The notes under the pieces are model-generated. The model had not been told where the DNA came from and made no database searches. It saw nothing but the letters and a program-made list of their open reading frames with translations. Shown piece after piece: positions 3,828-9,852 of a DNA stretch of 64,000 nucleotides. This DNA comes from Sarcomyxa edulis (taxonomy: Eukaryota > Basidiomycota > Agaricomycetes > Agaricales > Mycenaceae): the NCBI GenBank assembly GCA_009761415.1, contig QUOL01000003.1:1116001-1180000 (forward strand), read 5' to 3'. Position 1 is the stretch's first letter; every line of letters starts with the position of its first letter. The position numbers were made by a program, and so were the translations under genes.

Positions 3828-5372
3828 AGTTGGAAAGAATAGCTAAACGGAATGCCTGCAGTGAAGCAGTCTTCATGTCATTGCACCTATATAGATTGCA
3901 AGAATAATTGAACAGGGAGAAGGGCTGAAGGTTGACGAGGTAGAAGTAATTCTTTTGAGGCATGGCCGATAACGCTCCACCGCCATATTCCAGGAAGATA
4001 GGCAACCATTGGTGGGGTTTTTGACAGAGAAATACTTCTCTCTAGTCGTGAGATGGGGCAAGCTCTGAGTCGTCACACGGATTATGTGGCGCGTCATGGA
4101 CCTAGGTGATGATAAGACTCGATGGGCGGAAAAGGTGCCGGTGTGTAACGCCGTCCTGTTGGTCGATTAGTAATATATAAAACATGTCAACGAGGAAGTA
4201 CTTCTGTGCCATACTGCCACAGATGATGAACGGCAGAGGGCAAATGCCGTCGTTTGGGAAGGACCAAAGCAAAGACAAAGAAGTACAGATGAGATACATA
4301 CCAGAGGATGAGATCCTTGATCCTCGATGCGATATGAGACGATTTGTCTCAATTTCTGATTGGGAAACAATGGTGCAGGTCGTAGTTTCCTATTGCAGAT
4401 CGTGTCTTCGAAGTCGTAGGAGACAGGCTAATAAACATTGACCGTCCACATGGTCTTGTGAAGGTGCACCGACAAGAGCTTATCAGATGTTCTGCTAGAC
4501 TTCGTTCACCCATTAAGGATATGCCTTCGAAGAAGATCGAGTCTTTGAGCGCTGCGAGTCACAGAAATAGCTCGATAGAAGCAGAAAACCCGGAACTTTG
4601 GAGGGGCCTGTGTCAAAACCAGGGTTTGGGGAAAGCAGGATGGATCCGGAGAGGCGCACTCATATCGATATCGCGAGAACCCGACGCGGGCAGTAGGCCT
4701 GTGGACTCATGGTAAGCCGGTTCCAAAAATCGAACAGCTCAACACACCTACTACACGAGTTCTCGCTGATCTGGGGCTCAACGTTCCTGCATGTTGGGAT
4801 CAAGTACTCGGACAGATCAGAGTTGATTGCAAGGAGCTGTACATGTCCGATAAATAAATGAGTCGGACGACGGAGAAGCTTGGGGTAAGAAGTTGAGAAG
4901 GACTCCACGTGTCGGGAGACCTCAACTTAGAACTAGGCGTTGCTTTGCGTCACATGACCAAAACTCGACGGACGCGTTAAACCTATGCAACCAAAAAGTC
5001 GCGTTTCCTGTGCCCTTCGTGTGTGTTATCAGAGTATATACTTAGGCAGCGCAATCCAGCCCCAAGCTCGGTACGCTTCGATGAACAATTTATCGTTACC
5101 GCATATTAAGTTCATATGAGTATGTTAAATTCGGCATCCCGCTATGGGCATTGCTATTGGAGCAAATTGAATCTACCCTTGGAGCAGGCCTGACCTTTTT
5201 GGTTCAGGAGTTTATCGCAAAGGTAAGAGTCGGATGGTGAGCGCTTATCCATTGGGAGCATGTAAGAGCGATATTGACATTGCACGATGTGACGATATAC
5301 GCAATGGCCACAGCAGAGTTCATGAGCTAGACTGATGCAGCAGCGACCATTCTGGCAGGAGAATGTTTATTA
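3828..5372. other. Gene-poor stretch
   Basis: About 1.5 kb separates the methyltransferase start from the foldback element. Open frames on both strands (for example 4184-4441 on plus) lack family motifs and plausible splice partners. The part nearest 3827 should contain the methyltransferase promoter. Nothing else could be supported. Confidence 0.4.
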
Positions 5373-5703
5373 TTGCCGTTTGCAGAAAAATTGGCGGCGG
5401 CGCGTTTTCTCACGATTTCGGCTCGAAAGGTAATCCCACCTTCTGCGAGTGATATCTCCACAATGGACGTATATTTCCACATCATTCAAGATGTAGATCT
5501 TTGTATCTAGTCATTTCCTAGATAGCCCCACTTTCAGAATAAAAATCCGTTGAGATTTGAGTGATTTGAACATTTTACCCCTATCTCTTGTGGTTTGTCG
5601 GTTGGCGAGCGATGCCTTTGTTCCTAGACACTTTCTGGCCCTACCGGAGCTCTCAGAAATTATGTATCTGTGTTCTCGAGACAGCCCCATGTAAAAAACA
5701 GGC
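5373..5703 (+). repeat. Left arm of the foldback element
   Basis: The arm pairs with 5791-6120 in reverse complement. Matching blocks, from outside to inside, are the 52-bp identical end, the block with CCTTCTGCGAG, the block with AGCCCCACTTTCAG, the block with CCCCTATCT, the block with GCGAGCGAT and the inner block with CAGCCCCATG. Confidence 0.8.
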
Positions 5704-5790
5704 TTCTGACTACTTCAAGTTGTCTTACCGGGAGAGCCAGATATTGTAGAACAGACCGATACTCATGTGATTGGTACAGCCTCTAATATA

Positions 5791-6120
5791 GCCATGTTTT
5801 GCATGGGGCAGTCTTGAATGCACCAATATATAATGTCTGGAACTCGGAATTTGACCAGAAACTGTCTTGGAACAATGATATCGCTCGCAGACCTTCAAGA
5901 TGCCAAAGATAGGGGCGAATTACCCAAATTACTCAAAATTGAACCGTTTTTCAATCTGAAAGCGGGGCTGTCTAGCGGTAAGCTATAGAGAAATATATGT
6001 GTCTCAAATTTCGCAGATATACACCTTCATTGTGGAGTAATAGCTCGCAGAAGGTAGGATTGCCTGTTGAGCCGAAATCGTGAGAAAACGCGCCGCCGCC
6101 AATTTTTCTGCAAACGGCAA
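5791..6120 (-). repeat. Right arm of the foldback element
   Basis: This is the reverse-complement partner of 5373-5703, and nearly the same length (330 against 331 bp). The outer 52 bp (6069-6120) match the left end perfectly. The inner part differs by substitutions and a few small gaps. Confidence 0.8.
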
Positions 6121-6433
6121 TAACTCGGGAAGAGGCAAAAAATATCAGTGATCGGGCACGTATGAAGACCCAGACCCACGTGGCCCGAAGGGTTGGTGAG
6201 TAGACGCGACTCTCTGGAGCAAGTAAGGTGGCATGCGTCGCATTCCATCCGTTGTAGTAGGTCTTGCGGCGCGTCGGATGAGAGCCTCAATAGCATTGAC
6301 AATGTGTGTCGACACTCAACGTTATTGATTTTGAGAGTGGGGCTCATGTGGATATGAAGGAATGTAAGTATTGTGTAAGTGAGCGGGTCTTCGGTCGCGC
6401 GGAGCAGAACATTCTTGAAGCACAGTCAGGGCA

Positions 6434-8053
6434 TCAACTTGACGGATATTTGAGATCCTCGTCTGCAGGCCCTTCACGGTCCTGACCGTCACCATATACC
6501 TCTGTCACAGTTCGGACCTGAATATTATGCAGGCGTATGTCGTTCTGAGCCGCCATGTTAGGGCCAGTAGCCCAGATTGCGTTGCCCTAATATTTTGTCA
6601 GCATCTGAATGTATCAGGAATGACCGATTGTGAGGATTTACCGGCGACTGTATGGCAGAGTCAGCTGCCATGACATCTTGAAGCTTCGACCGCGATAGCA
6701 ATGTATCCATCAAGGTCTATCGCGTGAAGTCAGCCGGTTGCAAAGAATTGTGTATACTGGACCAAGACACTCACATTGGTGTATATACGACCGACAGGAA
6801 ACGCGAACATCCCATAAAGATTCGAGTCCGTCGCCACCAAGAAGGTGATGAGGTCACAGAGCGAGAAAATGCTCGAGAAAACGCCAGTTTGTATACTTCC
6901 TCGCATGAGGCGTTTGATAACGGTATCGGTTTTGTGGAATCCAGTACGGGATCGGTATAAAACAGTAGTGAGTATCACTGTAGATCAACGGCTGCAGTTG
7001 TAGAGATGGGCACGGCTTAATTTTTTTAATGAACGCTTACCTGTGATCAAAAGATCAGTCCCGACCTGGAAGGATAACCAAGCGGTAACGATAGGTTGCA
7101 AAACACCAAATTTCACCACGCTGAAAAGAGCCGCCGGGTCAGAGTGTCTACCTGATAGATCGTACTATAGCAGACTCACTCGGTAAGGATCCAGGACCAG
7201 ATACCGCAGGCGAGACCCAGAGCAAACGACACGGCGGCTAAGACTAAGATCACCATATACATGTATCGGATGTTGGTTAGACGCATGACTCTAGATCATC
7301 GTGAAACGTTGAGAAAGACTCGCAAGGGACGAGACCGAGACCAATACCGATATCCGAGAAAAATGTGAGTAAATATAGCGGCTATTGCAGTTCCAATCGG
7401 GGTAAATGTGAATGGCCACAGGGCCTCTGCATATGGATATGAGTTTAGAGTAAGATATTAGTAGATTGTGACCAACCGGCTAAAATTGCTGGATTGTCGA
7501 AGTTCGTGATGCTGCAAAGAAGCTACCGTTGGTTGAGTTATGATGCAAGGTGATTCTGGAAATACCAATATGCCCAGGCCATGTACGCAAGACTACGCAA
7601 CGACCGATCCTCAGTCAGCCGAAATCATCAGAAATATATAAGAAAAGGCACTGACGCGGCGCTATGAAAAGTGTCGACACAGAACAGGACAAAAACTATG
7701 CATCTACAGACACAGGTCAGTAGATGACTTTGAGAGGCTGAGTCACTTGCCTGATCCATATCGGATCTTCGAGCTCTATAGGTGTGAAAGATCAAGTTCA
7801 CGGAAATATTCGAGAACAGTAGATACAGGACTCACTGGAATTATAGTACGCGACGAATTGATACGAAACAAGGCCATATAGATATGTGTTGACTGGACTC
7901 GAGGATTTGAGCATTCTGCACGAGGCTACAAACAAGGATAACTATTTACGGACGATTCCAATGAGCACAGTACCTTAAGGATATTTTAACGTAAGTCAAC
8001 TGAAAGTACAAAAATGAATGGCGCTCACCCAGTGTCTTGTCAAAGTCGCCCAT
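6434..8053 (-). CDS. DUF6534 multi-pass membrane protein
   Basis: This belongs to the Agaricomycete-specific family of seven-helix-like proteins ending in a DUF6534 domain. Its function is unknown and it probably sits in the plasma membrane. The first exon begins at the ATG at 8053 with MGDFDKTLG, a typical family N-terminus, and is followed by many short exons carrying hydrophobic helices. The diagnostic segment lies at about 6730-6950. It has KTDTVIKRLMRGSIQTG, then FSSIFSLCDLITFLV, then NLYGMFAFPVGRIYTN. The last exon ends with a polar cytosolic tail (TVTEVYGDGQD) and TGA at 6434. Not every internal splice site was fixed. The foldback element begins about 310 bp beyond its 3' end. A second family member starts at 62309. 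Confidence 0.75.
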
Positions 8054-8431
8054 GTCCGAACGGATGGAAAAAGAGGGGAAGGAAGAAGTTCAGCGACTGT
8101 CCACTGCTGCAATGCAACTCTTAAGGGATGCAGCATGAAACATTTAATAAGAGCAGGCATCCAGTTCATTCATGTCACCAGCGCCTAGGTGACCATACAA
8201 ACCTGCTCGGTTCAGCCACAGGTCCATCCATCGTATTTAATCCCACACTGCCGAACCGATATTAAGGGCAAGACACTCGTGGACGCCCCTAGGATCGATA
8301 AGTTATGTCAGAGCAGGAAACATGAGGGTTTATTCCTTTTCGGTAAGCGTTACCATCCTTACAAGCGATGGAACGCGCTGATCTTCTGACGAAAGTGGAG
8401 TCTAGGACATCCTTGGACCGGCCGCGATAGG

Positions 8432-8438
8432 TATAAAA
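8432..8438 (+). promoter_or_regulatory. TATA box of the Rossmann-protein gene
   Basis: TATAAAA lies 51 bp before the ATG at 8483 but only 21 bp before the ATG at 8453. Transcription normally starts about 30 bp after such a box, so the inner ATG is favoured as the start. Confidence 0.5.
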
Positions 8439-8482
8439 GTGCGACTGAGAGCATGCCCTTCGTGAAATTTGAAGCTGCATCC

Positions 8483-9852
8483 ATGTCGACTCCTACTATC
8501 TTCTTCCTTGGGGCCACTGGCTATCTCGGTTCTCAATTGCTGATCTATCTGGCACGGGATTTGCCCCAATACCATATCGTCGCCCTTGTTCGCCCTCCCA
8601 CGATCGAGAAAGAAGCCGGTTTGAAGGCCATATACCCTAACCTCTCGATCGTTGAGGGTACCCTCAACGACGACGCAGTCATCCAAGAGCAGGCTGCGAA
8701 GGCTGACATAGTTATCAACACCGCCAGCTCGGACCATTTCCCCAGTGTTAAGTGTAGGCAATGTTGATTTGATATAATGCTTCGATGCACACTGACGATT
8801 TATCGATGTACAGCTACGCTTGCTGGACTCGAGAAGAATTCGGCCGACCACCCTGGGAAGCCGCCGTTGTACATCCATGTTTCCGGTCTCGGGATTACCA
8901 GCGATAATGCGCGGGGTGAACCCGTCGACATTTCGGGATGCAAGGAGCATGCGGACATCGGATTCAATTTGGACATGTGTCCGGCTGAGAACCAACATCT
9001 TGATTCTGACAGAGCGATTATAGAGGCTGGTACTAGGGAGACAAACAAGGTCCGCACCATTATCATCTTTCCAGGATGGATCTACGGGGTCGGCGAAGGT
9101 GCGCATGAGTAATCAAAGATCGACGTCCGGACAGATCATAACTGACTATGCGGCTCTAGGTTTTCAGAAGATAACACTTCCGGTCCGTCTTTTCATGGAT
9201 CTGAGCAAGAAGCTTGGTTTCGCCGGGACCTGGGGACCGGGGGCAAACGTGATGAGGCAAGTATTCGTGGGATATTTAGCGTCCATGGGTGAAGTTTCTC
9301 ATGATGTCCGACATCGGATTGCAGGAACATTCACGTCCGCGATGCAGCCTCTGCTTGCCTTGCCGTATTCAAAGCTGCGCTGGAGGGCAAGGCCGATGAG
9401 GGGGCTGAAGGGGTTTGTAGGTATCTCAATGTGTGATGGTGGAATCAGCAGCTGATACATATTTGGCAGATTTCGCTATCAGTGAGGCGCCGATGATCTC
9501 CATTCACGACTGGACTGCGAGGCTGGGTGACGTAAGTTCGAAATATGATCTAGATGCTCGCGGTGGACTGACCTTTCTCGATAGATACTGTACAACAAAG
9601 GTGCCGTCAAGCAGCCTGGAGCACGACCTATGCCACCCGAGGTCACGGAACCTCTTGGAGAATGTAAGTCCTATTGCGTTATAAGGTATCGTCATGTATT
9701 GACGATCCCCAGACGGATGGTCCCTGTTCGGTGGTAACCAGCTTGCAAGACCAGGACGTTTATACCGCCTTGGATGGCAGCCGACTGAGACAGCGAAGAA
9801 GACGCTGCTAGAATGTCTTCCGGAAGAGGTCGATGTCGTCCTCGCCGAATGA
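8483..9852 (+). CDS. NAD(P)-binding Rossmann-fold protein (NmrA/extended SDR type)
   Basis: The first exon carries the dinucleotide-binding strand-turn-helix TIFFLGATGYLGSQLL near residues 4-19, followed by a basic residue in ALVRPP that suggests NADP preference. Later exons give the helix-rich substrate side: SGLGITSD, IIIFPGWIYGVGEG, the GTWGPGANVM region, then a segment with HVRDAASACLAVFKAALEG. The C-terminal half has FAISEAPMISIHDWTARLGD and a final exon with RPGRLYRLGWQPTE, ending with TGA at 9850-9852. Introns are short and phases agree through the last four exons. Such proteins act as reductases or as redox-sensing regulators; the substrate is unknown. The ATG at 8483 was chosen over 8453 because of the TATA box. 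Confidence 0.8.

Follow-up and report, generated by a model that had tools for sequence, protein, structure and literature searches.

A palindromic TA-type MITE with foldback-like arms in Sarcomyxa edulis and its possible mobiliser

An inverted repeat of 748 bp lies in a 64,000-nucleotide stretch of the Sarcomyxa edulis genome (hereafter the window) and raises the question of whether such a locus is a mobile DNA element, a source of long hairpin RNA, or a product of the genome assembly. An initial annotation of this DNA had described it as an almost complete palindrome flanked by TA, and had offered a foldback/MITE element or a hairpin RNA processed by Dicer as possible readings. Our analysis leads us to regard the locus with high confidence as one copy of a non-autonomous DNA transposon that inserts at TA, a confidence that concerns the element and not any named enzyme. 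We classify it as a TA-type MITE with foldback-like arms, a kind of element already known, of which it represents a new family.

Structure and surroundings of the inverted repeat

The sequence read at window positions 5373-6120 is an inverted repeat with TA on each side, as had been claimed (Table 1). The self-comparison that the initial annotation had proposed returned a single long inverted match in the window, between 5370-5696 and 6123-5797 (76% identical, E 8e-40). The terminal repeat is exact over 55 bp when the TTA and TAA at the borders are included and over 52 bp when counted from position 5373, and it is the longest exact inverted repeat found within a 1-kb span of the window. In 20 first-order Markov shuffles of the window, for which the shortest length looked for was 11 bp, the best exact inverted repeat measured 11-16 bp, so the palindrome is not a product of chance. 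Across the whole arms, 281 of 358 aligned positions are identical (with 38 gap columns in addition), and past the perfect 55 bp this falls to 226 of 303 (75%). From the outside inward, the identity per 55-column bin is 55/55, 41/55, 35/51, 40/54, 40/53, 37/50, and 32/39; the drop after the first bin indicates that the palindrome is imperfect inside. The coordinates and the long inverted match of the original description are thus retained, whereas the wording "almost complete palindrome" is too strong for inner arms that agree at about 75%. Elsewhere in the window, the self-comparison also returned a short palindrome of about 29 bp (8645-8673, E 3e-4).

Erroneous joining of one sequence to itself during assembly could be considered as the origin of a palindrome, yet no point in support of such an artefact was found. 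About one quarter of the aligned positions differ between the inner arms, and these differences are found again nearly unchanged in copies on two other contigs, which argues so strongly against a palindromic join that we consider its probability negligible.

Only two of the listed open reading frames of at least 70 amino acids overlap the element (132 and 104 amino acids); both extend past its edge and gave no Pfam match at E 0.1. A transposase coding capacity was accordingly not detected in the element among frames of this length. On one side, the nearest frame with a Pfam match above the cut-off, in the subset of frames that was scanned, is NmrA/epimerase-like (8390-8767). On the other side, no Pfam match exceeded the cut-off in the three frames scanned between 3360 and 4857, and a COG5-like frame (463-1008) scored just under its own.

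Table 1. Coordinates of the palindromic element (window positions) and of the related 733-739-bp elements (genome positions)
Feature	Position	Strand	Basis or remark
Left TA of presumed target-site duplication	5371..5372		Preceded by T at 5370
748-bp non-autonomous palindromic element, MITE/foldback-like	5373..6120		Flanks, self-comparison, genome copies, alignment
Left perfect terminal inverted repeat, 52 bp, begins TTGCCGTTTGCAGAAAAATTGG	5373..5424	+	Self-comparison, exact repeat length
Left imperfect inner arm, about 75% match to right arm	5425..5696	+	Self-comparison, alignment
Central segment between arms of local match	5697..5796		Self-comparison
Right imperfect inner arm	5797..6068	-	Self-comparison, alignment
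Right perfect terminal inverted repeat, 52 bp	6069..6120	-	Self-comparison, exact repeat length
Right TA of presumed target-site duplication	6121..6122		Followed by A at 6123
733-739-bp non-autonomous relatives	L090 G000:C34:1929600-1930400; L091 G000:C28:77355-78120		End-pattern search, alignment

Copies, target sites, and the hairpin alternative

The fungus's own genome assembly (35.6 Mb in 40 contigs), for which all copy counts are lower bounds, holds five full-length copies of the element on five contigs, the window copy included, and two partial copies. A DNA search delivered two full-length copies that are 99% identical to the window copy (C40:1384068-1384821 and C38:844671-845425) and one that is 89% identical (C39:542511-543270), as well as the partial copies at C21:148475-148851 and C40:488691-489022. 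When brought into a common orientation, the C40, C38, and C39 copies agree with the window copy without gaps at 750, 745, and 674 of 754 positions, respectively, each of these four close copies being 754 bp long with TTA and TAA counted in. An 18-base pattern of the ends, allowing up to three mismatches, matched the genome 50 times compared to 22 times for the reversed control. Facing pairs of ends less than 10 kb apart, selected by eye, comprise the four known full-length copies, a deleted copy of 354 bp (C40:488667-489020), and C37:1270823-1271570, which was added by this search as the fifth full-length copy. The C37 copy has the same length of 748 bp but matches the window copy at only 438 of 752 positions with 4 gap columns, and represents a diverged subfamily, of which a search with the C37 copy found no further member in the genome. 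The half of the element that is represented in the C21 partial copy is the opposite of that in the 354-bp copy. It was suggested earlier that many copies with TA duplications would speak for a mobile element; dispersed, TA-flanked copies with conserved ends were indeed found, although the family is low in copy number here. In viral contigs, the exact 25-base end pattern gave 0 matches.

Three of the 50 end-pattern matches sit in a different repeat, which is more than 99.9% alike over 4.9-5.2 kb on three contigs (the start of C34, the end of C38, and inside C40; L054, L055, and L056) and holds a match to the element end with 3 mismatches.

All five full-length copies are flanked as T-TA-[748]-TA-A, that is, each has TA on either side within TTAA. 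The deleted 354-bp copy reads TTA...TAT, and the one end of the C21 copy has TAA. Since TTAA accounts for 95 of the 3058 TA sites in the window, the binomial chance of finding this context in at least five of six copies is near 2e-7. Outside of TTA and TAA, the flanks differ among the copies, except for a CTCGG that follows TAA on the plus strand in the window and C40 copies; as these two copies are oppositely oriented and the CTCGG therefore faces opposite element ends, its sharing is probably due to chance. When the five joined flank junctions were used to search the genome for an empty site, each aligned at its own locus as two unjoined halves only (99-100% identity), and three further junction matches stem from a repeat within the right flank of C40. 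As no empty site was found in this genome, the TA duplication is read from the flanks, and the TA on both sides is presumed to be the target-site duplication. The initial annotation had taken the TA on each side to favor a Tc1/mariner-type insertion.

Two other types of insertion were considered and rejected. In piggyBac/Kolobok-type insertions, TTAA is duplicated, but the flanks read TTA...TAA, with one TA per side instead of one TTAA per side. Harbinger-type insertion yields a three-base duplication, whereas the triplets at the two borders, TTA at the left and TAA at the right, do not form a direct repeat.

The comparison of the window copy with the C39 copy bears on the other reading, namely a selected long hairpin RNA locus whose double-stranded transcript would be cut by Dicer. 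The predicted RNA fold of the strand is very stable (-391 kcal/mol, where 20 shuffles average -196; z -30), though any long inverted repeat gives such a fold. Changes on both sides of an arm pair are also more frequent than the two rates predict (9 compared to 4.0 expected), an excess that can be explained by uneven rates along the element. From the window to the C39 copy, 26 of 281 Watson-Crick pairs became G-U or unpaired, while changes turned 24 of the 77 other pairs into Watson-Crick or G-U pairs, so that pairs are broken about as often as they are made. Only 2 of the 358 arm pairs changed on both sides and stayed Watson-Crick, and compensatory changes that keep the pairing are thus not apparent in this one comparison of two copies. 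An Rfam search at E 0.1 gave no match, and the dispersal of the copies with TA flanks likewise argues against a hairpin locus.

By contrast, the distribution of the 80 differences between these two copies is that expected if a transposase must recognize the ends. None of the 80 lies in the terminal 55 bp on either side, where 11.7 would be expected (chance 3.3e-6, assuming an even spread of differences), and only 2 fall in the outer 58 bp, compared to 12.3 expected (chance 2e-4). As the differences do not preserve pairing and are lacking in the perfect ends, a DNA element is favored over a selected hairpin RNA, which we consider very improbable. The mobile-element reading of the initial annotation is supported by five full-length copies of 748 bp on five contigs, all of which have conserved ends and are bordered by TA at left and right.

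Candidate mobilizing enzymes

In the mechanism that we propose from these sequences, a transposase supplied in trans would recognize the perfect ends of about 52 bp, after which the element would be excised and inserted at a TTAA site, whose central TA would be duplicated on insertion. The enzyme would belong to the IS630/Tc1-mariner group, for which a resident 1531-bp family or a close relative appears to be the best candidate. In the genome, 21 matches to the transposase profile DDE_3 and nine to DDE_1 were found. The 1531-bp IS630-like elements, which are of the DD34E type, are present in four copies, three on C1 and one on C37, which are identical to one another at 1518-1531 of 1531 bases. 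One pair agrees at all 1531 positions, from which the family seems to be recent. Their ends read CAGCCGTTTCAGAAAACC (with one change at one end of the C37 copy), and all four are flanked as T-TA...TA-A. In the first frame, scanned in one copy, HTH_33 but not DDE_3 exceeds the Pfam cut-off, and DDE_3 does so in a later piece. A 321-amino acid Pleurotus protein aligns with one copy in three collinear blocks, including the aligned D, D, and E residues (the second D and the E being separated by 34 residues in the Pleurotus protein), and the intron-sized gaps between the blocks probably reflect splicing. A search with the candidate transposase found 323 proteins. Among the matches listed (at least 120), most are unnamed, and the named ones belong to Pleurotus, Mycena, Laccaria, Armillaria, and Dendrothele as well as to one metagenome-assembled Chlamydiales bacterium, a range in line with a mushroom-forming basidiomycete as host. 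In viral contigs, five pattern matches to the candidate transposase were obtained, none of which was confirmed.

The candidate ends, CAGCCGTTT-CAGAAAA, resemble the element ends, TTGCCGTTTGCAGAAAA, at the same distance from TA, and the alignment of the two reads GCCGTTT-CAGAAAA and contains a gap of one base. When anchored at TA, 0 of 6016 background sites in the window (18-mers) and 0 of 6011 (36-mers) reach the score of this similarity from either side, while at 25 bases 0 of 6015 do so against the candidate end and 3 of 6015 against the element end; these backgrounds leave out the element's own ends, whereas a background of 6110 sites, used below, includes them. The ends of two other IS630-like elements are less similar to the element, with 129 of 6110 background sites being as good for one (L070) and 249 of 6016, 771 of 6015, and 2 of 6011 at 18, 25, and 36 bases for the other (L069). 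The palindromic element shares the TTAA context, the TA on both sides, and similar TA-anchored ends with the 1531-bp family and its 733-739-bp derivatives on C34, C28, and C23. Unlike the 1531-bp family, it starts with TT and not with CA, and its interior is unmatched. Because of these two differences, the link of the 1531-bp transposon to the element is inferred with about equal weight for and against, and the resident IS630-like family or a close relative, while being the best mobilizer candidate, has roughly an even chance of being the enzyme source.

The same chance is assigned to an element of the same kind with a different mobilizer, which might be a TTGCCG-ended partner that this strain has lost or lacks, or a member of the pogo or impala-like Tc1 groups. 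This would account for the TTGCCG ends of the element, with outermost TT, facing a candidate that starts with CA. It is also in line with blastn searches of the candidate loci, which returned no match to the element at E 0.1 and none to its 62-bp end at E 1, so that neither interiors nor ends are matched by this method. Moreover, no autonomous element with matching ends was found in the genome with the 18-mer at up to three mismatches. Exact inverted ends were also looked for, with a seed of 12 and a minimum distance of 500 bp, at 22 loci that included 18 transposase loci, and by eye none of those obtained resembled the element ends; a scan of eight IS630-like loci for end motifs gave single ends of the TTA-CAGC type but no pair.

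The candidate, furthermore, already has a better-matching derivative. A 24-base pattern of its ends gave 15 matches in the genome compared to 0 for the control, namely the two ends of each of the four 1531-bp elements and of the elements on C23, C28, and C34, as well as a single end on C21; as the pattern contains TTA, the flanks of the C23, C28, and C34 elements are not an independent count. With TTA and TAA included, the C34 copy measures 739 bp and the C28 copy 733 bp, and their alignment shows identity in 726 of 739 columns. The C34 copy resembles the candidate at its two ends (85-87% over stretches of 98 and 89 bp), and its interior has no match to either the candidate or the window element at E 0.1. 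As read from the alignment, the close inverted match of the C34 derivative covers only about the outer 85 bp, unlike that of the palindromic element. This second non-autonomous family would fit an activity of the IS630-like enzyme in trans.

Against a different mobilizer stand the TTAA context and the end similarity that the element and the IS630-like family have in common. For the four impala-like elements of 1590 bp whose ends were found (L077-L080), T precedes the left TA in one case and A follows the right TA in no case, and the end of the one impala-like copy that was scored reaches 2.0-3.0 against the element end, whereas the candidate reaches 9.0-14.0. In the 6110-site background, 574 sites match the element end as well as this impala-like end does. 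The impala-like end had been intended as a negative control; against the end of the C37 subfamily it scored 5.0, a value matched by 141 of the 6110 sites.

One further locus (L068, in the G000:C6:523280 region) carries a TA-flanked stretch of about 1.7 kb at locus positions 980-2705, whose long inverted ends include exact stretches of 55 and 96 bp and surround a short DDE_1 match (27 bits, over the cut-off). Part of its left arm sequence is present twice in the right arm.

Affinities of the element and history of its arms

Stowaway in plants and mimp in Fusarium are TA-type MITEs of the IS630-Tc1-mariner group. Like them, the element is short (748 bp) with terminal inverted repeats (52 bp perfect), has no detected coding capacity, carries TA on both sides, and occurs as dispersed, near-identical copies, three of which are 99% alike. 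It differs in its arms, which are inverted, albeit imperfectly, over nearly the whole length, in its TTGCCG ends and TTAA context, and in its copy number, which is low for a MITE. Drosophila Foldback and Galileo are foldback or long-TIR elements, and in both, as here, inverted arms (in our element about 327 bp each and 76% alike) constitute most of the element. The arms of Drosophila Foldback are internally repetitive, whereas no family of direct repeats of at least 14 bp was found in 4800-6700 of the window, and the TA flanks and constant short length further set the element apart. The family was not found in the portions of the literature searched, which is not a claim that it is absent from print. 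Four MITEs have been reported in Laccaria bicolor, without end sequences in the matched passages (PMC3411680).

These findings add a well-delimited family of palindromic TA-type MITEs in a mushroom-type fungus, together with a plausible mobilizer. Since the candidate mobilizer, with its two identical 1531-bp copies, seems recent, cross-mobilization would be directly testable. The copies furthermore offer a small natural series on how long inverted arms diverge or homogenize; apart from the MITE family and this series, the locus represents ordinary transposon biology.

Within that series, the three near-identical copies have 281, 280, and 279 of 358 identical arm positions, and as they share their arm divergence, it is older than their spread, which appears to be recent given the 4 and 9 differences in 754 positions. 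With TTA and TAA counted in, these three copies have an exact terminal repeat of 55 bp, compared to 66 bp in the C39 copy and 227 bp in the C37 copy, while the length is exactly 748 bp in both subfamilies. It is conceivable, though we think it rather unlikely, that the arms are homogenized against each other starting from the ends, and that an IS630-like, TTAA-preferring enzyme tolerates the changed outermost two bases. If this were true, foldback-like MITEs would be maintained by gene conversion or hairpin-templated repair spreading inwards and not by selection alone.

GCCCC sites occur at corresponding places in both arms, five in the window copy and eight in the C37 copy (L053). Beside several of them, the subfamilies differ (GAYAGCCCC compared to GCGCGCCCC), yet the arms agree with each other.
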